Assembly (NCBI GenBank): GCA_033182465.1
Contig: CP137328.1
Location: forward strand, 186,001-250,000
Direction: 5' to 3'
Length of the DNA: 64,000 nucleotides
Origin: Sanghuangporus weigelae
Taxonomy: Eukaryota > Basidiomycota > Agaricomycetes > Hymenochaetales > Hymenochaetaceae
Below are positions 2,600-64,000 of the stretch, one piece after another. Made by a program: the position numbers and the translations under genes. Below the pieces are notes generated by a model. It made no database searches, was not told where the DNA came from, and worked only from the letters and a program-made list of their open reading frames with translations. How positions within the stretch are numbered: the stretch's first letter is position 1; each line of letters starts with the position of its first letter.

Positions 2600-3340
2600 G
2601 AGTAGCAGGAGTTAGGCAATAGTCCCACCTTCGGTTTTGTATCCTTGGAGCGAATGTATATGCCTATTATGTATTTTCAGACAGATTCAAATAGCATGCA
2701 ATGTTCTATTATTACTGGACTGGGAATATAAATGATTTTATGTAACGGAGCTAAAAAGGTAGGCGGGCCGGGACGTTGCCGGAGCCAGCATCACGTGGTG
2801 AAACATCCCAGATCTTCTCCCGCTCCTTCACTTCAACTTTTTCCTCATCGTCTTGCCCGTGTATGGATACGGATGTAATGCTCCCGGGAGTTGGAACTCG
2901 TCTGTGTCTTTCGTCTTGTCCTTGACATTGACTCCTATCGATACATCACGTTGGGTATCGCAGCAGCACCATCATCGCGTACGAGTTCCATCTGTACCTG
3001 TACCGACACGCAATCCGCAAATCTGCTCACGTCCGCGGTTGATCTTCATAATGGGGCGGGGATAGTGGATTGATGATAACATTGGTCTATTTGGGTGCTG
3101 TTGGTCATGGTGATAGCGAACAGCGGCTGTTCGAAGTGAGGGCAACAGCTGGAAGCTTGTGATGACGTAGTCATTTTCTTTCTTTAGACATAATAATTTA
3201 TAAGTTAGCTGAAACGTCAGCTTCCTTACGTTTCCGGTTCAGCTCCTTCTGTGCGTATGGCACGCTCATTTTGCTAAGCTAGGGCCCTTGGATGCTATGG
3301 TGCGCCTCCCTACATCGTTTATGTTCCCTCGCACTTTACC
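2600..3340. other. intergenic stretch
   Basis: No gene is recognised. Overlapping small plus-strand frames at 2853-3073 lack family resemblance. The CT-rich stretch near 2810-2850 resembles a fungal promoter. Confidence 0.4.
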
Positions 3341-4154
3341 ATGATTACCAAAGCCAAGTTTCTAGAAAGTGAGTAGCTTTTATCAAGTATTATTAGTGGG
3401 AGACTACTTATGATCAGGCCAATCTTTCTCTGGTGCAGCTCCTGGATGTGTCGCGCTCACTGCAAATGACCTAACAGTTGGCTGGAGCAACTTCAGTTCA
3501 CTCAAAAGCCTTCCACGGTATTCCGCGTCTGAAACTATGGAAGAAGTACCCTCAGCGTTATTTCCGCGTGTAGACCTCTCTGTTGTCGAGCTGGCTACTA
3601 CTCCTCCAACTTCTTTTCAGACTCTTCCCGAGAACGGAAGTAGAATGGACGGAGACGTTGCGCGAGCTGCAGGAGAATATGGTAGACCTGCACCGCACTC
3701 GGAGTCGTTCTTCAGAACCGGCTATACTCGCTCTTGCCATACCATCTATTGTGCTTCCGTGCAAGGCCCGTGATGCCGGTGATGGCGTACTGGGAATGCG
3801 CAAGCTCGAAGAAATCGTGCTGCAGGGCATGCGACGCCTAGCTCGCGTATATCCTGACCCGGTCATCAAAGCTGAGTGGGGGACTCGAGCCGAAGAGTTT
3901 GCGCAATTTCTACTTATATCGGATGATGAGGAGAGTTGTTGCTAGTAACGCGGAAACGCACTGAGTTCTCGACAAAGGAAGATTGTCACTCGCGCGTGTT
4001 CGGGAAGGAACTCCTTCCAAGGATGAAAGATAAGGATCCTTATGTGGAGACGATGATGAAAGGGACCAGCTACGTTCGACTTGTTTCACTCGTTCCAGTC
4101 TTATTGGATCCTGACAATCTCATTTTGCTGCGCAGGTTGTCCCTACGCCCATAG
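3341..4154 (+). CDS. hypothetical multi-exon protein
   Basis: I do not recognise this gene. A possible start MITKAKFLE at 3341 is followed at once by a GT donor. The best coding stretch is at about 3600-3945 and includes TLRELQENMVDLHRTRSR, then an apolar run AILALAIPSIVLPC and RRLARVYPDPVIKAEWGTRA before ending in an acidic DDEESCC tail at 3945. A further open frame at 3936-4154 overlaps it in another frame and may be a downstream exon. The helical, charged central part looks like real protein, but 3430-3600 can be read in two frames and I could not settle the splicing. It may be a decayed gene. Confidence 0.35.
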
Positions 4155-4832
4155 CAAATAGTATATGGTTGTCATTGCCCTGGTATACTATTTGGGAAAG
4201 AATTCGGTCGCAAGATGGTTCGACATCGAGCACCTGCCTGCCATGGGCGACTACATAGGTATAGTAAAGTACTATGCTTCACTATACTTCGACTCTGACA
4301 TCCTGCATTAGCTATTCAATTTCGTTTTTGTCGTCTTGTCATGTTTGATTATACAGTTTCTTTTCGGGGATATCTTGTTGCGTCTCGAATCCTGGCGCTG
4401 TATGTACTATCTGCTAATGGAACATTACTTTTCCCGCGGTAGTGCTTCTCATCGAGTTCACTACTTCCGTATCTATTTATGACTGTCCAGTGGTATGAAC
4501 GCTCGACCTAGGTTTGCCGTGACCGGCGCGAATGTATACAAGCAAATAAGCAAATAGCTACAGAACAGCACTTGCTTAGCAATGTTTTTCTCGCGATTCT
4601 CAGAAGGTACCGTCAATACACTATATGTTCCGCTCTATTTCTCTCATTTCACCTACCCGTAATGTTTGCGTTCAAATGGGAATCAGGGAGCTTCTTCGGC
4701 ATGCTAGAATTGGTCCCGTGTCGTTTCCATCCAGTTTCGGCCACTCTCAGCTTCGAATCGCACGGCTTTTCCTCTTCTTACAATGTATATGTGTCACGGG
4801 TGTGGGCCGTCTAAGGCCTTTCTGCTACTACC
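4155..4832. other. intergenic stretch upstream of the first P450
   Basis: No gene is recognised. Two overlapping small frames (4572-4814 and 4625-4921) look like leader or promoter sequence of the P450 that starts at 4833. Confidence 0.35.
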
Positions 4833-6990
4833 ATGACCAATGCGACTCCAGTTTCTGTTCTTATCCTTGTGTGCATCGTCCTGGGGATTCGTTCTTTCTT
4901 CAGGCGTCCTGCGAGCAGTAGTACTCTGCCTCCTGGCCCGAAGGGCTATTGGCTGATCGGAAACGTGGATAATTTTTTCTCCGGATATCAGTGGAAGAGG
5001 TTTTCTGTCTTGTCGAAGACTTTCGGTGCGTGATACATTCCATAGCTATCTTTATTGTACCTCAAACAAATATATTGTTTTTCTCCTTCAGGCGATGTCT
5101 TGTACATGACCATCTTTGGTCGTCCTGTTGTTGTTTTAAATAGGTTTGAAGATGCTCACCAGCTCATGGACAAGCATGGATCCGCATGTTCCGACCGACC
5201 GCGAATGGTCTACTTGGTTGATATGTACGTCGTTGTCCCTGAGACTCTCGAGCTTACCTTATGCGATCTCGTCAAAGGTTAAGGATTCGTTCCGCAACAT
5301 TCATGCCCTATGGAGACGACTGGAGAGCGCATAGGCGTCTTTTGCAACAATACCTTAACACCCGAGCGATTGCATCCTTCCGCAAGGCGCAATCCCGAAG
5401 TGTTCATCAGCTCCTGAACGATCTTCTGTCTGAACCAGATGCCTTTCGGGACTATGTCAAACGGTAATCAACCTTCGCGTCTCGCCTTTCCTCGCTGAGC
5501 GTTAATATGATAATGATATCGAGACAGGTCTGTAGCTTCTGCGGTCCTGTTCTCAACATACGGCTACGATGTAAAACGCAAGGACGACCCACTCATCGCA
5601 CTCATTGCAAAATCGGACAGAGCGTTTGTCCGACTCGGACCCCCGGGACTTACACCCGTAGATTTCTTCCCGTTCCGTGCGCTATTTTCCTTTCCTTCCA
5701 GACGAAAACTTCTGTTGACCCGGTTGGCGGCGCCAGTGCGCCACATTCTTCCATCCATCTCAGGCGCTTCGTTCAGAAAGTTTCTGGCGGAAGGCCAAGC
5801 TGCCTTATACGAAATGTGTACCTGGCCTTACGAGATGGTCAAGGAACAAAAAGTGGGTTGCTCGTAATTGTGTATTTGTGCTCTTGTTGAGTGATCGTTT
5901 CCAAAGGCATCTGGTTCATTAGCTCCGTCAATGCTATCTCGTATGCTGGACAATGCCGAACAACAAGGTATCTGCAGCGAATATGACTATGAGAACATCA
6001 AAGACGTTTGCGGGTCCATGTATCGAGGTGGGAGGTTTGTCTGATGAAAGCGTGCTCCTAAAATAACGATTTCAAATAAGCTGGAGTTGGAACAGTGCGT
6101 CTCTTCTACCTATCTCTAAAAAGCATAGTTCTTCCTAAAACACCATCTAGACCACTTCGGTATTGTACATCTTCATTGTAGCGATGATCCTACACCCGCA
6201 CGTCGCAATCAAAGCTCAGAAAGAGTTGGATGCCGTTCTCAATGGAGGCCGCCTTCCGACATTCGAGGACCAAGATTCGCTTCCATATATTACTTGTATA
6301 CTGAAGGAGACTTTGAGGTCTGGGCCGTCTTCAATGACCTGCATTCTTTATTTGTTAACAACTGTTCAGATGGGCTCCTCCTTTCCCTCTAGGTGGGATT
6401 ATCTTACATGTCTACAGCGTAACTCGTGCTAAACGTTAACATCATATTCAGGTATAGCGCATCGAACAACTGAAGAAATCGAATTGAACGGGATGCGCAT
6501 TCCGAAGGGCTCTTCGGTCGTTCCGAATATTTGGTTCTCATCTGTTCTACAATATTCTCGGCACTCTTCTGAGTTGCTTATAATTCCAGGCAAATGATGC
6601 ATGATGAACGGAATTATGCTGAACCTGAAATATTCGATCCCGATCGATTTATGGGATCTGCTCATGATGCCTCGCCTATCCTAGATCCCGCAATGGCTGT
6701 GTTTGGCTTCGGAAGGCGGTAGGTGTTCCAATGCGTACCATCACTCATTCAACGTCGATAGTTTGATGTGTAGTATTTGTCCGGGGCGTCACTTCTCAGA
6801 AGCCTTTCTCTGGATAGTCATGGCAAGCATTCTTTCTGTATACGACGTCCTTCCGATTCAGGATGAACATGGAAAAGACATTCTTCCCAAGGTCGAGTTT
6901 CGGATCCGCTTGAATAGGTAAGTAATAGAGGTTCACCTAAATCTAGTCTATCCGTCGCTTGCTTATAGTGCGTTTAAGCTGGTCGCTTAA
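4833..6990 (+). CDS. cytochrome P450 monooxygenase (cluster P450-1)
   Basis: A membrane-anchored haem monooxygenase of the fungal P450 superfamily, expected in the ER membrane. The N-terminus (MTNATPVSVLILVCIVLGIR) is a signal anchor and is followed by the proline hinge LPPGPKGYWLIGN. Then come MPYGDDWRAHRRLLQQY (C-helix, about 5305-5350), FSTYGYDVKR, an I-helix region reading AGVGTTTS across an intron near 6090-6165, the K-helix ExxR motif in CILKETLR (about 6300-6320), RWAPPFPLG, and the PERF-like DPDRF. The haem loop FGFGRRICPGR has its cysteine near 6780. About ten short introns fit GT-AG. The last exon 6969-6990 ends SAFKLVA and stop. It lies in a block with an MFS exporter, a second P450 and a GMC oxidoreductase. 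The substrate cannot be read from sequence. Confidence 0.88.
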
Positions 6991-7492
6991 GGAGTTCCCT
7001 GGTCGATTTGTTGTTCGAAGCAAAAGGTCTGAGGTGCTGATCAAGAGTAGTAAGGAAATATTGTAAATTTGGACCATCGTTTCTTCCAATCCCGGGCCCA
7101 TGGATGAATGATGAAACATTTCTGGCTCGATTTTCTGCATTCTGAGAGGCCGAAAGCAAACATGATTTATCATGACGGTAATTGAACAAATTTGCTTCGC
7201 TTCATCCTGTGAGGATCACTCCTAATATAGACTTTACTTTCTCACGTTTCACGGTCATGCCAGTTCCGCGCGACGGAAGTCGCGACGCGTCTCGGACGTT
7301 TTCCAATATGGCGAAGGCCGTGCTTTCAACAGAGCAGCTTGAAAGCGAGAGGACGAGCATGCAATGTAACACTAAAACAAATGTATTCTCAGGTTGATTG
7401 AGAGCTGCGCAATTGTATGCTCAACATATCTAAACTTAAATATGAGAAGAGAAGGAACAATGTGACGACTGCCCGTGGTTGATGAATCTCAT
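6991..7492. other. spacer between convergent genes
   Basis: This stretch separates the 3' ends of P450-1 (+) and the MFS exporter (-). I see no gene in it. It probably holds both 3' untranslated regions. Confidence 0.5.
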
Positions 7493-26740: not shown

Positions 26741-27027
26741 ATTATATTGCTTTGTTTAAACTCCAGCATAACAAGTATTTATTCTGTCGACAAGTAGTAT
26801 ACATTGAAACGAGTGCTCGATTTGCGATCATTGATGCTCAATATGTTAGTGCGCTGTCTCCCAATGAAAGCCTTGTCATGTCTGATATAGACAAACTGAA
26901 TAACGGTCCTGTTAGCTTGGGGTGAAATGATCTGCCTGGGGACTCACGCTATTTGACTGAATTCGGCTCGAGTCTCCTCAGCCTGGGGAACGCTACACAG
27001 AGATCAGACACAATAACACAAGGCGGA
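26741..27027. other. stretch without a recognised gene
   Basis: Nothing recognisable. It separates the minisatellite from the LTR that starts at 27028. Confidence 0.4.
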
Positions 27028-27482
27028 TGTTAGGCGGTGAGACTAACAGACGTCGATCTCGAGGCAGCCAACACAACAACAAACAACAGGCTAAGTGCGA
27101 GTTGCCGAGCTAGACGCAAGCTATGTCATAGTGAAGATAAGTAGAATATTCAGTAATACTAGAGTACAGGAGTAGATACCTATGACGTAGTGAAGGTAAG
27201 TAGAATAGAAAGACAAGGAAACGAAAGAGTCAATCTAGCTACTTATATACACTTTGAACGTGAGAAGGGTTTACTCTATTAAGGAATCACATGATGAAGG
27301 AGTGGAGTGATTAGTGAGTGTCTTAGTTGGAAGGAACAGATTTAATCATGGTGAATGAGTAAAAATGAATAAGCCATGATGGAGCAAACGGGATTAGTAA
27401 AAACAGATGAGTAATGTAAAAGAAAAATAATAGAATGAATAATGACATAAGAAAAGAAAAGGAAAATGTTCGAGTCCTAACA
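27028..27482 (-). repeat. LTR of the truncated Gypsy element
   Basis: 455 bases with TGTTAG...CTAACA ends. A diverged solo copy in the opposite orientation lies at 59072-59467 (shared blocks include GAACATTTTCCTTTTC and CTCCATCATGGCTTATTCAT), which confirms the boundaries. Confidence 0.8.
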
Positions 27483-28650
27483 TCACCCTCCCTTCAAGGT
27501 TGGGCGTCCTGACCAACCACATAAGCCTTCCGACGACATGAACTTGTACATGGAACGAAGATTTTGATGAGGTATTGATAGTCTTCTTGGAGCCCCTGGA
27601 TGCGTTCGATAAAATTCTTCGACTGCTTCCTTAGCGTTATCTCCAACGTCTGATTCAGGCTGACATGTTACTTTATCATACCCAACCCACTTGATGAGGA
27701 ATTGAAGCTTTCCTCGATGTAGATGTGAGTCAAGTATTTCTTCAACCTTGTATTCTTCTTTGTCTTCAACAATGACGGGTGGTGGCAGTGGGGGTTTCCT
27801 TTGAGATTCGAATGATGGTTCAACAGCTGGTTTAAGTAAGACTTCGTTGAAGACGGGGTGTACTTGTCTCCATGTGCGAGGTAGTTTAAGTCAATATGCA
27901 CTCGCACCAACTTTCTTGATGACTTCGAAGGGACCAAATCATTTATCGTCCATCTTCTTCATTAGGCGTATTGTCTTTATATTCTGTCCGTTGAGGAAAA
28001 CCTTGTTGCCAGTCTCGTATTCTACCACTTTGCCTGCGTGTTGGTCGTAGAAGCATTTCATGTCATCATTGGCCTTGACCAGGTTCATTTGTGCGAGTTT
28101 GTGTACTTCCTTGACATGTTTAGCAAATTCTTCCGCTGACAGGTTTGTTGAAGACGTTCCAACATTTGTGAACCCCATGGGGTGGACTCCAGTATTGACA
28201 AAGAAAGGGGATAACTTTATCGCTGAGTGCTCATGATTGTTGTATGCAAACTCTGCTAGTGCTAGCCAGTCTGCCCAATCCATCTGTTGATGGTTAATGT
28301 ATAAGTGTAGGAACTGTTCAAGCTCCTGATTGACATGCTCAGTTTGGCCATCAGTCTGGGGATGATATGCCGTCGATGGGTTGCCTTCGATGTGGAGGAG
28401 TTTATACAGCTCTTTCATCATCTTCGCATCAAATTGTACGCCTTGGTCATGAATAATCTTCCTCGGGAGTCCATGTAGACGAAAGACGTGATCTCGATAG
28501 ATCCTTGCCATGCCTTCTGCAGTCAGCTTCATCATCATTGGGATTGCATAGATCTGTTTGCTAAAACAATCAACTACCATGCATATGGCATTAAACCCAT
28601 TCGACTCTGGTAATTCTCCGATCAAGTCGACCGTGATGATTTGCCATGGT
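27028..28650 (-). mobile_element. truncated Ty3/Gypsy chromovirus-like element (fossil)
   Basis: The 3' part of a Gypsy element lies in minus orientation. Its LTR (27028-27482) is bounded by TGTTAG and CTAACA, and a purine tract (GGGAGGGTGA on the minus strand) abuts it. The internal part carries integrase core sequence, with DHVFRLHGLPRKIIHDQG and TAYHPQTDGQTE in the frame at 27939-28625, and further 3' pol sequence beyond. Everything upstream of the integrase is missing, and the remaining part looks broken in a few places. It is clearly older than the full-length element at 29311. Confidence 0.8.
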
Positions 28651-29174
28651 GCTGTAGACTATCAGACTCTCTTAAGCAGCAGTGAAGGTGGCTGTGTTTG
28701 ACCACAGGGAGGTGTCAGCAATGTCAAAGATCAGAGAGGTAAGAAAGGGTGCAACTCATGGGTAGGCCTCCTAGACAGCTCAATGCCGCGGCGAACGATT
28801 TGACCTGGAAGCACTGCCACCAATCGGAATGCATGCTCAGTCGTGGGGGAGAGCTCAATTGTAAAGACTAGAACATGGTTGGTGTATGGAGGGGTGCCGC
28901 TGATAGCACACGGGACAGAGGCACTGACAATCACTAAGAGATTGGCGTCATCGTCGATCACCACAACGAGAGCTCAGTCGGTGATTGAGTGTAAGGTCTC
29001 GGTGTCGTGGATAAGTAGTAGAGCAATGGCATCGTCGGGTTGCACGGGCGTCAGTGACCACCAGGAGAGTGACATCCTCGCCGATCACTATGAAGAGAAC
29101 TCAGTCGGTGATCACTTATAAGGTCTCGGTGTCGTGGATAAGTAGTAGAGCAATGGCATCGTCGGGTTGCACGG
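28651..29174. repeat. tandem repeat unit R1, left part
   Basis: This segment continues, after removal of the inserted LTR, at 42902. Together these make a unit of about 770 bases that recurs as 43147-43323 plus 44787-45395. It contains shorter subrepeats of about 110-130 bases marked by GTGGATAAGTAGTAGAGC. No gene is seen. This is the older substrate into which two solo LTRs inserted. Confidence 0.7.
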
Positions 29175-48914: not shown

Positions 48915-49830
48915 GCACATCCCACGGTGGCCTGGTGCACGTTGTTTTCCGAGAGAAAGGTCCTGAAGCTACACAATTGCTCTTTATGGGTCTGCAGAAT
49001 ATCGTCAATTATTGGCTGTTCCACAATGAATTCAGTATCGGTATCGGCAATATGGTTGCAGACAGAAAAATGATGGCATACATCATGGAGCAGATTAAGA
49101 TGCAGAAACAGAATGTTGCCAAAGTCCATAGAAGATGCGGCCATGGATCGCCTGAAAGCAGCTCCGGATATGACTATCCATGAATCCTTCAAGAGTCAAG
49201 TCGAATGGGAGCTCAGTTTGGCTCGTGATCCCTCTGGTCAATATGCTCAGGAGAACCATAAAGAGGACAATAATGTCAAGCAGATGGTAGTTGCTGGTTC
49301 CAAGGGTTCCTTCATCAATATCTCCCAGATGTCTGTTTGTGTCGGTCAACAATCCATCGTAGGGAAGCATATCCTGTTTGGCTTCGAACATCAAATACTT
49401 CTGCACTTCACAAAGGATGATTTCAGTCCAGAGGCGTGGGGTTTCATTGAGAATTCCTACTTGCATGGAATAACACCGCAAGTGTTCTTCTTTCATGCCA
49501 TGGCGGGTCGCAAGGGATTAATTGACATGGCTGTCAAGACGGCGGAGATTGGCTACATCCAACGGTGGCTTGTCAAGACTCTAGAAGACCATAGTACATT
49601 ACGATGGGACTGTTCGGAACTCGTTGGGTGATCTCATACAGTTCATCTATGGCAAAGGTGGCATGGATGAGACTTTCATTGAGAGACAGAGCATTAAAAC
49701 GTTCAGTATCAATGATCGTGAATTCGAGCATCGCTACCGTGTCGATGTTACAGATCTGAAGGTGGCTTCCCTCCTATTGCCTGCCGATCGCCCACTGAGA
49801 GTCAAACTTATTTTTTCTTTGTCAGAATAA
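48915..49830 (+). pseudogene. fragment of RNA polymerase II largest subunit gene
   Basis: A displaced piece of the RPB1 coding region. It starts at HGGLVHVVFREKGPEAT and includes [39 protein letters not shown] and [19 protein letters not shown]. The bridge-helix region reads [18 protein letters not shown] and [17 protein letters not shown]. Homology fades after EHRYRVDVTDL (about 49760). No introns are present in the piece. Two single-base insertions, near 49125 and 49583, shift the frame, so it cannot give a normal product. Several normally invariant positions are changed (for example MAGRKG for the usual MGGREG). Both ends are abrupt: repeat C on the left, TIR-type AT-rich DNA on the right. 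A full RPB1 gene must exist elsewhere. Confidence 0.85.
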
Positions 49831-49906
49831 TAAAAAAACTTTATATTTCTTCCTATCAAAGACATAAAATTTTGGCAATAACTAAACATAACCATTTTTG
49901 CTTTTC
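49831..49906. other. A-rich spacer after the RPB1 fragment
   Basis: Contains CAGAATAATAAAAAAAC. It could be a short poly(A) trace of a retrocopy or simply AT-rich transposon DNA. Confidence 0.3.
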
Positions 49907-50122
49907 TAAGACTTCGAATTTCTTTATGTGTTTCTCACACGACATTATTTGAAATCTCTTTGTTTTCCTAATCCGAATCTAAATCCTTATTGTTATTTCA
50001 AGTTCTATCAAGGAACAAACATGAAATATTTCACATAATTAAATACAGTATTTAATTTCAAATCTTGTTTGTCAGCTAATTATAAATTTCTTTTAGATTA
50101 TAGTAACTCTTTGCCCGGTGTG
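49907..50122. repeat. right terminal inverted repeat of the CACAGCGGG family (orphan)
   Basis: Diverged copy of the right TIR at about 62,940-63,337. It shares GAATTTCTTTATG, TTCTCACA, AATCTCTTTGTTT and ATTGTTATTTCAA, and ends TTTGCCCGGTGTG at 50122. No matching left end was found nearby. It lies just after the RPB1 fragment. Confidence 0.6.
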
Positions 50123-50566
50123 AAATATTCCAGTTGAGTCATTCCACAAACATTTTTGTCTCAGAGCACTTAGAATACAGTCATATACTCCTACAATTTT
50201 TTCCTCGCAGATTTGTGCACTCTGGCAATTAAAATTGAAAGATGAGTCCTGGCAGGGTGACATAAGTTGACAAATGAGTTTGGTTTTGCCCATCCGATCG
50301 CACCTCACAGAACTGTGACAACATGTGACAAAAGATGAAAAGAGGGATACCCCATGATTATTTTGCTCAATAAAATCTGTAAAAAAAATTTGAAAGTTTA
50401 GAGATGTCTATGCATACATAAAGACCATGTGTGATTTTTTTGGCGTGAAAAAAACGATGTTGTAAGTCTACAGACAAGAAATGAAAAGAGGGATCACACT
50501 ATAGTACTGCGTATATGGAAAGCCATATACGCATTATACACATACAGTTGGAACACTAACTAGTAC
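50123..50566. other. right edge of the mobile island
   Basis: No gene is seen. A direct repeat GAAAAGAGGGAT occurs near 50336 and 50483, and a small palindrome around 50513-50530 (CGTATATGG/CCATATACG). Unit B starts abruptly at about 50567. Confidence 0.35.
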
Positions 50567-51751: not shown

Positions 51752-52774
51752 TAGGGCTCCGACCATATGCGTATAACCCGTATACAGGTACAGCCGTATC
51801 CGTATGACACAATAAGAGCAAAACATACAGGCCATATATATGCGGTCGTATCTATATTCAAAGGTCTGAAAATTTGACGTTTACGGCTTATACGCCATAT
51901 ACGGGAGCTAAGGCCCCGTGTCTCCCGGTAGCATAGAATTACACAGCGGGCAAATAGTTATTTAGACACGGACTAAATCCATTACTAGATGACAAATGAA
52001 ATTTGAAATATAATAATGTATTTAGTTGCACAATATATTTGATGTCTTTTCCTTAGCTAAATGCTAAACTATATTTGAAATAACAAAAGGGATTTAGATT
52101 CGGATTTGGTAAACAAAGAAATAACTGTAATTGCTAAAACTAGAAAGTATAGTTATTTCTTTGTTTACCAAATCTGAATCAAAATCCCTTTTGTTATTTC
52201 AAATATAGTTTAGCATTTAGTCAAAGAACATATATAAAACATACTACATGACTAAATGCATTATTATATTTCAAATTTCATTTGTCATCTAGTAATGGAT
52301 GGATTTAGTCCATGTCTAAATAACTGTTTGCCCGCTGTGATTAGGTATATTTTATGCCATTTTTGGTGATTTGGCAGATCACTTACTTGAAAAGTATATT
52401 CCCAGGCTACCAAAATGAGGAAGGAAGGGACTGCCGTCTTCAATACAGTACTGTTCCCACGCATCTCCTTTCTATCGCAGTCCACTGGATTTGTCCGCTG
52501 CGCCCTTCTTTGGGCAGGGGTGAACTACTTGAAGTGCGGTATTTGCGCTATGTAAGGTCAAGATAACTCGAAATGATCATGTTCAACTCATTTTATTTCT
52601 ATTCTACAGTTTCTGCTCTGTAACTGCCGTATACGGCGTATTCCCCGTATACGAGCTGTCCGTATCCGTATAACGGTCTGGTGTGCCATATATACGGGCG
52701 TATATATACGCCCGTATCCGTATGAAACTTCTTTTATACGACCGTACCCGTATACGGATACGGTCGGAGCCCTA
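51752..52774. mobile_element. hAT-like non-autonomous DNA transposon
   Basis: 1023 bases with terminal inverted repeats TAGGGCTCCGACC / GGTCGGAGCCCTA and an exact 8-base target duplication TAGACAGG (51744-51751 and 52775-52782). Other units show the empty site (for example GGCCAGAGATAGGGGCTGATA near 26120). The TIR start and 8-base duplication fit the hAT superfamily. Subterminal DNA is packed with CGTATACGG-type words on both sides. It carries no transposase. Another fold-back element is nested inside. Confidence 0.85.
51942..52339. mobile_element. fold-back element of the CACAGCGGG TIR family, nested
   Basis: 398 bases, nearly a complete palindrome: CACAGCGGGCAAATAG on the left, CTGTTTGCCCGCTGTG on the right, and long matching arms (AACTATATTTGAAATAACAA / TTGTTATTTCAAATATAGTT). 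The arms match the 400-base TIRs of the large element at 58474-63337, so this is a MITE-like deletion form. The target duplication is unclear (ATTA-type bases on both sides). Confidence 0.8.
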
Positions 52775-55208: not shown

Positions 55209-56575
55209 GACTTTCCGATGTATCGAAAAGACACGGACTCAGAAAAGGGGAGGCGAGGGAACAAGTACGCAGTCGATTTGATGGTGATCGTAGCGAAATG
55301 GTGAAGTGGTTGTTTTCCAGATTTGTTGCTTGGCGTCTTCGAGTTCGTGCTTATAGATTGCTTACGCTATCGTGGGACCCATAACAGGAATGTATTACGT
55401 AATGATATATTTGTGGATCAAATTGATGCGTATCGTACTGTCTGAAGCTTACACGTACCTGCTTAATTCCTACCTTATAATCCTGATCTTGCTTTCGAAA
55501 GAGCTCAGTTTTAATCTCCTATTCTCACTCTGAGTGGACAGAAATGAACCTCGGCTCTGTGGCGGGAAGACTTGGAATGGATATATTGTTGCAATTGATT
55601 TGGATCATCTGCCCACATGTCGGTCAGCCAATCCAGACTGTTTATTGTCACTGAATTTAGCCCAGAGTAGTTTCCCTGCCTGAATCAAGACGTAGCCTGT
55701 CGACTACCCAGCCAGGGTTATCGGATTCCTGAAGCATGTTTCCTGATTTCCTTACGAGTCATCCCTGTCGTAGTCCGCATTGCGGCACCGCCCGAGTCAG
55801 AAGGGATTTTGTGGCCTTTCGTTCACAATATACTAATTTTACTTGGATTTATCCCATGATATTCCCGCACAAAACACATATAGATGATGCTGGCCAGAGA
55901 CAGGGGCTGATAGGCTCCTGTCGAAGATGTATCCATTGTGGCCTGTCGATGCATGCTTGTTTGGGACATCTGACTTGTGTGTATAGAATTCGTGGCCGTC
56001 TCATATCTCTGCTAAGTTCCGCCACATCAGAGTCACAGGGGAATGAGGTCTCTATTGATAGTCATGCTCATTCAGTTTACCTACTAGATGCCGCGACAGC
56101 CGCTCTTGATGTATATGACTTTTGGTCACCTTGCTATCTCTTTCGTCTATCTATTCTCCAGAAGGGCTCTGCCGTGGTTCAGCTCTTTCAGGAATGCGAC
56201 TAGAATTTAGAATCCAGGATCTTCATATTGATAGAACTTTTTTTCTGTTGAAGACTCATGTCCTCTGCACATGTGCTCCACTTGCGAACCTGTGTTCCAT
56301 ATTCTATGTCGGCCAGAAATCCTGAGTCAATATTTGTGGCCTATGAAGTCTGTAAATTCTCTTCGGAAAATGATGTTTTCTTTATGAATTCACTCTTCTC
56401 TTACACTTACCTTCTTATATCTCCAACTTTTGATGTTTACAGAATGTCCTCACAAGTAGTTTTACTCAAGTCTGAGTAGATTGTCAGTGACAGTCTTGTT
56501 TGTAGGTACACCCTTCCCAACAGATGCACTATTATTCCTCTCGACACCTTGAGGAACAACTCACTTGCCATGTAA

Positions 56576-58335: not shown

Positions 58336-58473
58336 GAGTGAGTTTTCAACGTACACATTCAATACAGATACGAAAAAAAAGAGATGAGATAAGACCTGCG
58401 TCGTGGTTGATTGCTTACGTTATTTGACGATCAAAACTCCCATTTTGGTTACTCCACCATCTTGTGCTAGTTC

Positions 58474-58865
58474 CACAGCGGGCAAACTGTTATTTAAAAC
58501 TGGAACAAATTCATAACTAGATGACAAACGAAATTTGAAGTTTAATAATGCATTTAGTCACATAATATATTTGATGTTTGTTTCTTGGCCAAATGCTAAA
58601 CTATATTTGAAATAACAATAGGGATTTAGATTCCAATTTAGTAAACAAAGAGATTATAAGTAAAGTCATGTGAGAAATGCATAAAGAAATTTGAAATTTC
58701 ATCCATGAAAATATGCTTGCATTTCTTCATGTGCGAAATTTTAAATCATCTCAAGGAAAACATTTGAAGTATCTTTTGTAATCTCTTCAAAGAAGAAATA
58801 AGATGCGTGATCAATGTGCACTCAGTGCCTGCTCAGTGCACACTCAGTAAACACTCAGTGCCTGC
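58474..58865. repeat. left terminal inverted repeat of the Pack-type element
   Basis: About 390 bases, inverted at 62,940-63,337. It includes GAAATTTGAAGTTTAATAAT, CTAAACTATATTTGAAATAA and TCAAGGAAAACATTTGAAG, then CACTCAGTGC subrepeats. Confidence 0.8.
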
Positions 58866-59071
58866 TCAGTGCATACTTTAGTCTGTGCATCCTTCTTGGC
58901 AGTATAAGCTGCCTTCTCTTCCTCAGCCTTACAGAGATCAATCTGTAAGTCTTCGATCTTGTCCTTGAGAGCTTGGATGTCGTTCGGGTCAATACGATCA
59001 TACTAGTTGTTGTCAATAAATTTTAAAGTATAAATGCTCTAAATACAGATCAGTTAACTTGCCTTTGTAAG

Positions 59072-59467
59072 TATTAGGACTCGAACATTTTCCTTTTCTT
59101 TTCTTACATCATCATTCATTTTAATATTCTTCTTTTACATTACTCATCCATTTTTACTAATCCCGTTTGCTCCATCATGGCTTATTCATCTTCAGTCATC
59201 AGCCATGACTAAATCCATTCCTTCCGACTAAGATGCTCACTAATCACACATTCCTTTCATCACATGATTTCTTAATAGAGTAGACCCCTCACACGCTCGA
59301 AGTCTATATAAGTAGTTAGTTTGACTCATTTATTTTCTTGTCTTTCTATTCTACTTACCTTCACTTCAACATAGCATGTGTCTAGCTCGGCAACTCGTGT
59401 TTAGCCTGTTGTTTGTTGTTGTGTTAACCGCCTCGAGATCGATGTCTGTTAGTCTCGCCACCTAATA
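59072..59467 (+). repeat. solo LTR, same family as the truncated Gypsy element
   Basis: 396 bases, TATTAGGACTCGAAC to GCCACCTAATA, a shortened and diverged reverse match of 27028-27482. Near-identical flanks GTAAG and ATAAG suggest an aged 5-base target repeat. It lies inside the captured MLP1/TPR piece. Confidence 0.75.
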
Positions 59468-59801
59468 ATAAGAAGCTCAGCATTCTATTCCTTTCATTGA
59501 CAGCTCTCGTCTTCAAGCCATTAAATCTGAGCATTCTTGGCATCAAGCTCAGCATGGAGCATCTTTGCTTCTTCTTTAAGTGGATTCAGTTCTGATTAGA
59601 GGTGATTGAGCGTCGTCTCAATCTGGTGTGCTTTGCATGCTTGCACTTCACTCTCTGCACAAAGCATGGCATCACTTTCATGGAGAATTTTGAGTTGGTT
59701 AATCCTTTCCAACAGTTCGGCATGCTCAGTAGAATTACTGATAGCTTTCACCACTTCTTCACACTCCTTTTGAAAGAGTTAGAATGTATTGTAAGGATAA
59801 C

Positions 59802-59945
59802 ATCAGGAAAACAGTCCAAACTACCTACAGCTATCTACAGCTATCACAGCTACTCACCACTATAGGCTGCTATATAGTGGCCTATAGTGGTGAGTAGCTG
59901 TGGTAGCTGTAAATAGATATAGGTAGTTTGGACTGTTTTCCTGAT
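59802..59945. mobile_element. 144-base perfect-looking palindrome (MITE-like)
   Basis: Arms ATCAGGAAAACAGTCCAAAC and GTTTGGACTGTTTTCCTGAT flank inner arms CAGCTACTCACCACTATAGG / CCTATAGTGGTGAGTAGCTG. It interrupts the captured coding piece. The family is unknown. Confidence 0.75.
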
Positions 59946-61385
59946 GAAGCAGAATGGTGCAGATGAACATTTGACAATGCTGCCCCTGTTTCCTCAAGAG
60001 CCTGGCTGAGATGGTTGATCTGTGCCTTTTGTCGTGCATTCTCCTGCTTGGAGAACACCAGTTGAAGGTCAATGATTTCCTTCTCCTTGCACAGATAGGC
60101 TACTATGGAATGCAGCTCCACCACACAGCCATCCACATCATCACTGTCACCTGACTCTGGCACGGTCATGTTTGATTCCGCAGCTTGACGTATACGAGAG
60201 GCCTGTGAACTGAGACTCCAGGTGCCGGTGAAGCAGGCTATTTTGTGCTGCAAGGTCTGTGTGACTATATTCTAGCTTAGAGATATGTGAGGAAGTGAAC
60301 AGAACAGCTATGCTTACCGAGCTGTAAGATCTGCAATCTCCTTGTTAAGAACTTCTTGCTGCTGGTTCCAACTAGCTTCCAATGTGGTCAAGTTCGCCTG
60401 AGCAGTCTCAGCTCAAACCGTCTTCTCGCGTAAAGAAGCACGTGCCTCACTGAGCTCCTTCTTGAAAGCGTCCACAACCTTTATCGACTTGGCATGAGCG
60501 ATGATTTCACGAGAATATTTCTCTTCAGTGGCCTTTATACAGCGAGTAAGTTCACTGATGCTCTTGACATTGTAATAGACCTACCTTGGTACGCTGCATC
60601 TGCTCTCAAATCTTGTTCTTGTGGGATGTTTGATCAGTGCGTGAGCTTGTCTCAGTGTGGCAAGTTCATTTTCAGAACCATCTAACTTACACAGCGATCA
60701 GCTTCTGAACTTCGATATCCTTCTGCAGTTAAATTTGTCGGACTGTGTCACACTCGTGGGAAAAGCTGAGTTCGAAGATCCTGACTAGAGCATTCATAAT
60801 TGAATGTTACTACACCAAAGTAGACGCGATATAGAGGAATACTTATGCTTGGCCAGGCAGGTCATGGATTTGGGACTCAAATCTTCCCAGTCTTCTTGTA
60901 TCACTTCCATTCATCTTGCCAATATCATTGTGCATTTTCTGCACATTGGCAATCAAGTCCACCATACGAGACCACTCCAGAGACAGAATTCCCATCAATT
61001 AGTCAAGTCTGCACATTCTACATCTCGAGTTAATATGAATCACAAGACGAGTTAATATACGGCTACGCACCTCCCAGGTCTTCTTTTTCGCATGAAGGTT
61101 GGAGCATTCATTCTGCAATCGCTTGATCTGGGTATTAGTAGATACAAATCCTTGGCAGCATAGTTGCATGCAATATGTAGATGTGTGTACTGATTGTGTG
61201 ATTGTTAGTTTCATTTCTGAAGATTTTGAGCTTGTCGCTCATGCATGATGTACTGTTCCTGAGCCATGCAATGCCACTCTAACCGAAACAGTGAGCTTGA
61301 CCTGTTGAGGACACAAAGAGAGTAAACTCACTCAATCCTCGTGTTAGCCTTCGCAAGTGCCACACTCAACTGGCTGGATTCACAC

Positions 61386-62900
61386 TGTAGCGCACACCGC
61401 TATTCTGGGAATCAGCGGTCGAGTATTGTACATACTTCACCAGTGTCCAACACACTGGTGTATCAGCTGCCTGAGTGACTCCAACAGTCACAAAGGGTGT
61501 ATACGACTCGATTCGATCCTTCCAAGCGCTCCGCCATACCTTAGGACGCGCCCGAGACTTCGTACATATCTTGGCTCACCCTATTTCACCTTCCATTGCA
61601 TATATGTCACATTCCAAGACCCCGAAGACCCGCTAATACTGCGCGATAGGTGCCACGCCATATTTTGTTGTCCATACTTTGTCACACTACCATTCGCCGA
61701 CCTCCGCCCCAGTCACCCGAGCGGATATCGGCACTCTGAAGCCTGGACCCAGACTCCTGAAGGGACCCTAGGCCTTTTCATTAGCGTTTCACACCGCCAG
61801 GGACCATTCCGACCTGTTTCGAGATACCCAACAGTTGCGTACCTTCATCCTAGACATTCCACAAGGTGCACTCCATTGTTTGGACTTTGCCGAAGTGGTC
61901 TCCGAGATTCGGACTTCTGATCGGAGTTCGCCGACTGGTACATCCGTCCGATCTCTCCGTCCGGTTTGTTCACCGACTTGGTTGCGCAGTTCGGAGGACC
62001 CTTCCTGGACAGTTTTCATGTTGTTTCACAGTTCCTTGCAGTCTGTCTGACCCTTATTGCGTCAGTTTCACACTCCTTGCCATGATTTCATCTTCTTTCA
62101 CAGTCTCTTGCAGTCCGTCTGACCCTTATTGCGTCAGTTTCACACTCCTTGCTATGATTTCATCCTGTTTCAGAGTTTCTTGTAGTCCACTAGACTTCTG
62201 TCTTGTCGGTTTCATGCTCCTTGTTGTGGTTTTATTACGTTTCACCTCACATCTTGTCACGATCCTACCCCAGTCCCAGATCAGTCGTTTTGTACATGTT
62301 TTGGAGCCTCATAGTCTATAAAACCTGCCCAGATGTTGTAGTTTTCAGATAGCGAATACCAGAGATCTGTTCAGCACACACATCTTCTGTTCCAAAGCCT
62401 CTCAGACCGTCCCGACCGACTCTGTCAGTTATAGAAAGCCATAGTACCCGCCTTGGGTGTCTCGTCTTCCTTGCCTAGACTAGTCCGGACATTATGGGGG
62501 TGACTCGGATACTCTCAGCTTGTCTACTTTCTTCGTCGACTCATCTCCGAGGTGATCAAGTTGCCGAAGTATTCACTCGGTTCACCGCAGCACGTCCGGA
62601 TTGGTCTCCCTAGACAACCATTGAGTATCACATCTTGCCTACGTGTATTCGCTCACCCGCCCTTTTTCCACCCTTTCAGATAGTTCACCCCGACCGTTGC
62701 GGCCGGAGCCATTCCGACTAACCGCAGTTCCCACAGAGTAGGCCGGAGTCTTGGTCTGTCTCAGGGGAGTCTTCCGGATCACCCTTCTTTGTTTGGTTTC
62801 CCCGATTCGTTCTCACTCGCTCCCTATAGGATCAAACACCCTAGCCTGCTAGGATCGCACCTACAGACCTAGTCCGATCGTCCACCTACCCTATCGATCA
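61386..62900 (+). repeat. LTR-like repeat C, copy 2
   Basis: Starts TGTAGCGCACACCGC and matches copy 1 (45653-46138) for nearly 490 bases, then continues without a match elsewhere in the window. Near 62,030-62,230 a unit of about 71 bases (CTTGCAGTC...TTATTGCGTCAGTTTCACAC) is repeated about three times. The right end is unclear, near 62,870-62,900. An open frame at its left part is shared with copy 1 but changes freely and is not called a gene. Confidence 0.55.
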
Positions 62901-62939
62901 TACAATGCTGGTACTGAAGAACTTCTTCATGATAATACA

Positions 62940-63337
62940 TGCTGATTGCGCACTGAGCAGGCACTGAGTGCACACTGATCGTGCACTGAGTGCATGCTGA
63001 TCATGCATCTTATTTCTTCTTTGAAGAGATTACAAAAGATACTTCAAATGTTTTCCTTGAGATGATTTAAAATTTCGCACATGAAGAAATGCAAGCATAT
63101 TTTCATGGATGAAATTTCAAATTTCTTTATGCATTTCTCACATGACTTTACTTATAATCTCTTTGTTTACTAAATTGGAATCTAAATCCCTATTGTTATT
63201 TCAAATATAGTTTAGCATTTGGCCAAGGAACAAACATCAAATATATTATGCAACTAAATGCATTATTAAACTTCAAATTTCGTTTGTCATCTAGTTATGA
63301 ATTTGTTCCAGTTTTAAATAACAGTTTGCCCGCTGTG
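62940..63337. repeat. right terminal inverted repeat of the Pack-type element
   Basis: Reverse complement of the left TIR, with the subterminal GCACTGAGTGC-type repeats innermost and TTTGCCCGCTGTG at the end. Confidence 0.8.
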
Positions 63338-63344
63338 TTCCTTG

Positions 63345-64000
63345 TCACATGAAGTCGTGGCTTGTTGAGCGCCTGATCAGGGACATCAAGTTTCAGAAGT
63401 GTACCTACCAACCTCTTAACGGTAAGTTTACCTTTCATCTGGCTCATGTCTCTGTCCAAGTCAGAGGAGTTTATTTTGTGGCTTTTCACTCTCAACATTC
63501 TAACCTTTCTTGGATAGATCTCACAATATTTAGCGCCATAAAATCATGTGTAGATGATCCTGGCCAGAGACAGGGTCTGATACTGTAGACCCTGGTCGAA
63601 GATAAATCGAATTGTGGCCTGTCTACGCATGCCTCTTGGGGTCATTTGACTTGTGTGTAAAGAATTCTTGGCCATCCCGTATCTCTGCTAACAGTGCTAA
63701 GTCCCACCACATCAGAGCCATTAGGGAGTGAGGCCTCTGTTGTTAGTCTTGCTCATTCGGTTTACCTATGACCTTCGGTGGCCTCTTCTATCTCATCCGT
63801 CTTTCTGTGCTCCAGAAGGGCTCAGCTCTTTCAGGAATGCGACTAGAATTTAGAATCCAGGATCTTCACATTGATGGCACTTTTCTTTCTATTGACGACT
63901 CGTGTTCTCTGCACATGTACTCCAGGAAATCACTTGCGAACCTGTGTTCCATATTCTATGTCGGCCAGAAATCCTGAGTCAGTATTTGTGGTCTAGGAAG
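63345..64000. repeat. start of tandem unit D, runs off the window
   Basis: Upstream stretch like those of units A-C, with the TTGTGGCTTTTCACTC block near 63475, the GGCTCAGCTCTTTCAGGAATG block near 63815, and TCCTGAGTCAGTATTTGTGG at 63973. In the other units the TATA box follows within tens of bases and the small gene about 100 bases later, so a fourth gene pair probably lies just outside. No gene inside the window. Confidence 0.65.

Follow-up and report, generated by a model that had tools for sequence, protein, structure and literature searches.

A probable Pack-CACTA element with intron-containing MLP1/TPR cargo in the mushroom Sanghuangporus weigelae

Gene capture by Pack-type transposable elements is well described in plants and has been described for animals. 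No Pack-CACTA element of a fungus was found in the open-access literature searched, where the fungal precedents found were hAT elements carrying histone H3. The H3 copies of Pseudocercospora fijiensis are, in the account available, intronless, from which its authors infer the capture of a transcript or a retrocopy (PMC6710886), and the Helitrons of Pleurotus are reported, in the part of the source available, not to have captured host gene fragments (PMC4289320). Here, a stretch of 64,000 nucleotides from the wood-decay mushroom S. weigelae (the window; GCA_033182465.1, CP137328.1, positions 186,001 to 250,000, contig C11 below) was analysed for an element at 58474-63337, corresponding to C11:244474-249337. 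The original prediction, made from the letters of the window, was a Pack-type DNA transposon with a captured, intron-containing piece of the nuclear-basket gene MLP1/TPR. The element is very probably a non-autonomous Pack-type member of a basidiomycete CACTA/EnSpm-like family of cut-and-paste transposons.

Ends and MLP1 cargo of the element

The element spans CACAGCGGGCAAACTG to the inverse of CACAGCGGGCAAACTG, and its termini CACAG..CTGTG are of the CAC..GTG type. The left terminal inverted repeat (TIR; 58474..58861, plus strand), which begins CACAGCGGGCAAACTG and recurs in the genome, and the right TIR (62950..63337, minus strand) are both 388 bp long and 96% complementary, in agreement with the long near-perfect inverted repeats predicted around 4.9 kb. 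Comparison of the flanks revealed a target-site duplication TTC at 58471..58473 and 63338..63340. Repeats of the type CACTCAGTG / GCTCAGTG occupy a subterminal position where the left arm borders the interior (58819..58877, plus strand) and are mirrored at 62942-63000. Short repeats beside the ends are a CACTA trait, and repeats like these are also present in an RPB1-carrying sister element (RPB1-Pack) and in a transposase-bearing element, both described below. No transposase frame was recognised among the identified parts of the element, and genome-wide matches to PF02992 and PF18759 all lie outside C11:244474-249337. A search of a phage collection with a piece of the element gave no match, that collection being unsuited to the question.

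Genome-wide searches covered the whole assembly of 33,870,148 bases, which consists of 13 contigs up to 4,491,666 bases long. A terminus pattern of 23 bases with at most two mismatches was found 66 times, compared with no match for the reversed pattern used as control. Among these ends 48 formed 24 inward-facing pairs within 10 kb, showing that the predicted ends recur elsewhere as paired element ends. Many of the pairs delimit miniature inverted-repeat transposable elements (MITEs) of about 394 bases; the short members of this CACAG family are foldback MITEs with arms meeting mid-element, as at C4:6064-6723, which has no spacer. An exact 3-bp duplication was present at 7 of the 10 CACAG pairs examined. 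At C4:164140-168475 both ends, the same MLP1 cargo and the same inner junction were found together with a duplication of its own (AAT) and different later insertions, and the same cargo was also detected in two damaged copies, of which that on C8 has retained one end and that on C6 part of an arm.

An intact host MLP1/TPR gene is located on contig C9 (locus L041), with a gene model of 16 exons and 15 introns encoding 1879 residues; judging from the NCBI protein, the model overextends intron 13 by about 27 nt. Among NCBI proteins the host gene matched best to MLP1_9 of S. weigelae (99% identity over 100%). The inner sequence of the element aligned to this gene, introns included, in four ordered blocks on the minus strand: 58877..59071 (host 3446-3639, 88.7% identity), 59469..59800 (host 3636-3966, 87.0%), 59947..60655 (host 3965-4675, 88.7%) and 60667..61387 (host 5369-6109, 80.7%). 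The third block holds the PF07926 match, the profile search having placed a Pfam TPR/MLP1 family match at C11:246311-246556 on the minus strand. Between the last two blocks host 4676-5369 is absent, replaced by a filler of 11 bases (60656..60666), for which the C4 copy has 10. The remaining cargo at 62907..62928, also on the minus strand, has a right border inferred from comparison with the C4 copy, at host 6127.

The prediction of MLP1/TPR pieces in correct order with introns thus stood for the four blocks, but not for three stretches between them, which are later insertions and no cargo. These are a solo long terminal repeat (LTR) of Gypsy type at 59072..59468 with TAAG at both flanks, of which a full Gypsy element with the same LTR is present at locus L044, a foldback MITE (CATCAGG..CCTGATG) at 59801..59946 with a 2-bp duplication AA and termini resembling those given for PlavakaB in the part of the source available (PMC12730594), and an LTR copy at 61388..62906, with a high copy number in the genome.

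The cargo wholly covers host introns 4, 6, 10, 11, 12 and 13 and includes 52 of the 53 bases of intron 5 and 24 of the 52 of intron 7. The retention of introns indicates that genomic DNA and no spliced message was captured, and a processed capture through a transcript, as proposed for P. fijiensis, is ruled out. A capture in two pieces from sources of unlike age was prompted by the BLAST identities of 88.7 and 80.7%, and was dropped when gap-free base differences of the window copy proved closer (0.115 versus 0.146). The arms of the element had no match in the 10 kb examined around the host MLP1 gene nor in the 7 kb examined around the host RPB1 gene. The parental MLP1 is intact elsewhere and, in the stretch examined, without element ends, as is required of the parent of a Pack-TYPE element.

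The captured sequence has decayed. In-frame stops occur 10 times in 495 compared codons of the window copy and 7 times in 502 of the C4 copy, and the divergence between the two copies is 0.103 at first, 0.062 at second and 0.073 at third codon positions and 0.051 in introns. With these stops and no third-position excess between sister copies, the cargo bears no mark of protein constraint; relative to the host, third positions differ most, as would be expected of a constrained host gene. The window copy has 88 changes of its own, 72 of them C>T or G>A (58 at CpG), with corresponding numbers of 118 of 136 (70 at CpG) for the C8 copy and 25 of 45 (13 at CpG) for the C4 copy. Two copies of the CACTG family described below showed 15 of 39 (5 at CpG) and 16 of 41 (4 at CpG). 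In the codon-position comparison of MLP1 copies, matches below 60 bases were left out; there and in the tree described below, the C7, C1 and CACTG families were entered as representatives. The heavy CpG loss in the window copy would fit a methylated and silenced copy, as judged from sequence.

With the whole host MLP1 gene as query, 52 matches were found in the genome, the host gene itself among them. Long MLP1 copies of about 92% were observed at L042 (C7:2577500-2587499) and L058 (C1:977000-985000); most of the introns are retained, and in-frame stops number 7 and 9, respectively. These two have some sequence in common beyond the gene, and an inverted-repeat search around both gave no convincing transposon ends. 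A further partial copy without recognised transposon ends is located on C10.

Transposase source and related families

Profile matches to Transposase_21 (tnp2) were found at three places, on C6, on C1 and at C5:367674. The C6 and C1 matches lie in one and the same element, the two copies being alike at 99.1% over 6426 bases, 98.8% over 1927 and 90.0% over the first 908. Their homology begins exactly at CACAGCGGGCAAA (CACAGCGGGCAAATACC), and the flanks are unlike. The tnp2 frame of 575 codons scored 44.5 bits for Pfam Transposase_21 relative to a cut-off of 28.6 and had a 91% match in S. sanghuang. The first 13 bases of the tnp2 element are identical to the start of the CACAG family, which would tie the family to CACTA/EnSpm. 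The original prediction named no superfamily; the CACAG termini, the 3-bp duplications and a tnp2 element with the same 13-base terminus together point to this one. Plavaka was considered as the transposase source and rejected, as none of 8 PF18759 matches lies within 10 kb of a CACAG-family end.

The tnp2 element also holds a piece of RPB1 at 86%, and its subterminal repeats are similar to those of the RPB1-Pack elements. One of these sister elements, at C5:2640307-2649927, contains Rpb1 domains 2-5 and is interrupted by a Gypsy-type element. Its RPB1 piece derives from the gene at C1:3994240-3995887 (host locus L063), in which the long frame ends in RNA polymerase II heptad repeats. The clean form of RPB1-Pack is about 2.5-2.6 kb long, has the ends CACACCGGGCAAAGAGTTATTATAATCTAA and carries host L063 3240-4887 at 92-93%. 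Its end pattern gave 26 matches, compared with 0 in the control, and 10 inward pairs, the RPB1 piece being enclosed by 9 of these. Four of the copies differ mutually by only 0.15-0.53% in the compared part, indicating a recent spread (L066 was left out of this pairwise table), and an exact 3-bp duplication was found at 2 of 4 pairs. A horizontal origin of the RPB1 cargo, suggested by a third-position excess relative to the host, was unneeded by a simple three-point reckoning.

A second family carries a piece of MLP1 unlike the CACAG cargo. Ten loci have the host pieces L041 5387-6471 and 6943-7181 in common. Five of these were analysed (L019, L020, L045, L059 and L062); they have CACTG or CACCG ends, and each is flanked by a 3-bp duplication (AGT, ATT, ATT, AAT and ACT). 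One of the five is inserted inside a MITE of the CACAG family. Host 6518-7181 is continuous at L060, where it adjoins the same right end; the ten loci have therefore lost the stretch between their two host pieces by a later deletion. Two CACTG-family copies are 99.6% identical over 2123 bases. The CACTG end pattern matched 63 times and its control 50 times, which is no proof by itself and was unused as a count. The ends had raised the suspicion of a Helitron, for which no duplication and a 3′ CTRR would be expected, and the paired CACTG/CACCG ends with 3-bp duplications rule this out.

Further members and fragments of these families are present in the window. A foldback MITE with CACAG-family ends is located at 51942..52339, the flanks of which match over 4 bases (ATTA) and not 3. 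A one-ended remnant of the RPB1-carrying sister element occupies 48915..50128 on the minus strand, with the end CACACCGGGCAAAGAG at 50122 and 48920-49775 matching L063 4097-3240 at 88.9%. A small RPB1 fragment at 26814-27032 adjoins Gypsy-like sequence at 27024-28652, and a direct repeat of about 210 bases flanks the MLP1-carrying element (56134-56348 and 63788-64000, some 7.65 kb apart and 85-96% alike in pieces). Elsewhere, thaumatin-like coding pieces (PF00314) lie inward of the unpaired CACAG end C12:188051 (L048, C12:188030-190500), as cargo or neighbour. Inward of another CACAG end (L005 1905-3375, C13:472463), frames of 162 and 147 codons without a Pfam match may be cargo.

Origin of the captured gene pieces

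The best reading of these observations is a fungal Pack-CACTA system, the cargo of which comes from capture at the DNA level and has spread in trans. The predicted Pack-type transposon with an intron-containing MLP1/TPR piece is supported by the arms, the TTC duplication, the alignment of the cargo, the pairs of ends and the introns. The course of events may be depicted as follows: a tnp2 transposase would move the CACAG family in trans, and capture may have begun when a foldback MITE, for example one like C4:6064-6723, broke at the centre of its palindrome. MLP1 DNA, introns included, would then have been copied into the break by template switching, and the filled element would have transposed. 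Thereafter, the MLP1 piece would have drifted without constraint at the protein level, subject to nested insertions and decay.

Several points weigh against this reading. Short TIRs are typical of CACTA elements, and the 388-bp arms in the window are too long for this, although the trait is one of typical CACTA members and not of the transposase family. The three CACAG pairs without an exact 3-bp duplication have 4, 2 and 1 bases duplicated, and among the RPB1-Pack pairs one has 4 bases and one none. The arm of the tnp2 element aligns to that in the window over the first 13 bases only and not beyond, and 16 kb of C6 sequence (to C6:2043500) did not contain the far end of the tnp2 element. No capture intermediate was seen, and the capture route is one that we infer.

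That the locus is an ordinary segmental duplication, or an artefact of assembly, with coincidental inverted repeats is hardly credible. Partial MLP1 copies without recognised ends do occur on C7 and C1 (92%) and on C10 and would agree with such an origin, but the same cargo and ends recur at another site, flanked there by a different 3-bp duplication, and the ends are paired 24 times in the genome. Another superfamily is also very improbable. Mutator elements often have long inverted ends, with which the 388-bp arms would agree, and both they and Pack-MULEs make target duplications of about 9 bp, which are not seen here. The duplications were of 3 bp at seven of the ten CACAG pairs, of 4 and 2 bp at two others and of 9 bp at none (lengths 1-8 were computed and 9 was judged by eye from the flanks), and the CAC..GTG ends and the tnp2 element with the same terminus also speak against Mutator. 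Membership of PlavakaA or PlavakaB was rejected, since the termini described for them in the part of the source available are TGT..ACA or CATCA..TGATG (PMC12730594) and those of the element are CACAG..CTGTG. A less probable, though by no means negligible, route of capture is that a copy of MLP1 was flanked or entered by two MITEs close to each other and that the whole was then mobilised as a unit. Such a local-hopping model, proposed for plant Pack-CACTA, is documented for plant Pack-TYPE elements in the part of the source available (PMC8903248), and MITEs of the CACAG family are many in the genome. Under this model each end should consist of a complete MITE with both arms, but in the MLP1-Pack and RPB1-Pack elements the gene piece has a single arm on each side; as the arms of the MITEs meet centrally, a break at the MITE centre fits better than a fusion of two MITEs. 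Nor were family ends seen in the sequence examined around the host genes as they now stand (10 kb around MLP1 and 7 kb around RPB1), from which they may have been lost.

The number of captures was considered separately. Rather unlikely, to a similar degree as joint mobilisation, is a single ancestral capture in which an older element took a long stretch of MLP1, parts of which were inherited by the CACAG and CACTG families. In its favour, a tree of the overlap groups both families against the host, C7 and C1 copies (Shimodaira-Hasegawa-like approximate likelihood ratio test, SH-aLRT, 92.4; bootstrap 95), and the breaks at host 5369 (CACAG, inner) and 5387 (CACTG, outer) are only 18 bases apart, which is not readily explained by chance alone. 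Both breaks are held by the 52-base intron 7 of the host gene (L041 5341-5392). The shared branch is short, however, at 0.011 compared with 0.086 for the CACAG family alone, and 4 of 637 sites group the families against the host and C7/C1 while 2 sites give a conflicting grouping; the C6 copy, which covers only part, was left out of this test. At one such amino-acid difference the S. sanghuang protein has the residue of the families, so that it was the host that changed, and the ends and breakpoints differ between the two families. Since the tree has no outgroup, its grouping also fits two early captures, and the single informative amino acid agrees. Separate captures of MLP1 in the CACAG and CACTG families are likely. 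For RPB1, of which the captures may have been separate or one, the tnp2 element holds host 4352-5302 and the Pack element 3240-4887; in the overlap, 15 of 513 sites are shared against the host, and 20 and 34 are their own.

Comparison with known systems

The system is wider than was originally predicted from one locus, with an RPB1 sister subfamily, an MLP1 family with unrelated ends and a probable source of transposase. The recurrence of two genes in differently ended elements raises the question of favoured capture targets. A speculative and quite improbable extension is that capture is not blind: if MLP1 and RPB1 were captured separately, antisense or small RNAs from the many copies might dampen these genes and favour the elements that carry them. 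The dampened host genes would then be those which decide how transposon RNA is made, kept and exported, MLP1 with its role at the nuclear basket, in the export and quality control of mRNA, and RPB1 as part of RNA polymerase II. The capture step is testable in this compact mushroom assembly of 13 contigs, in which the donor genes, MITEs, young and old Pack copies and the probable transposase source are found together. For annotation, MLP1 and RPB1 pieces in Sanghuangporus can be transposon cargo.

As far as the available accounts go, the closest counterparts include the Pack-CACTA and other Pack-TYPE elements of plants (PMC8903248), which are likewise non-autonomous TIR elements with pieces of host genes, CACTA-type ends, short duplications and multicopy captured pieces. 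The elements described here differ in their fungal host, in arms of about 390 bp and in that the same two housekeeping genes are found in differently ended elements. Animal Pack-TIRs also carry gene pieces between TIR arms, and template switching has been proposed for multicopy cases, but the hosts are animals and most cases described in the part available are of single-copy gap filling (PMC8277862). Among basidiomycetes, CNIRT6 of Cryptococcus neoformans is a CACTA element with CACTG ends like those of the second MLP1 family, and differs in that no gene cargo is described in the portion of its report available (PMC12810828). PlavakaA and PlavakaB belong to a related CMCT group with 2-3-bp duplications, according to the part of the source available (PMC12730594); the nested MITE with PlavakaB-like termini is their counterpart within the element. 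The hAT elements with histone H3 in Pyrenophora tritici-repentis and P. fijiensis are, as here, fungal DNA transposons by which a housekeeping gene was captured and amplified, although with 8-bp duplications in place of 3 bp in the accounts available (PMC3538342, PMC6710886). The H3 copies of P. fijiensis are described there as decaying by C-to-T change (PMC6710886), as does the cargo in S. weigelae, in which the introns absent from those copies are kept.

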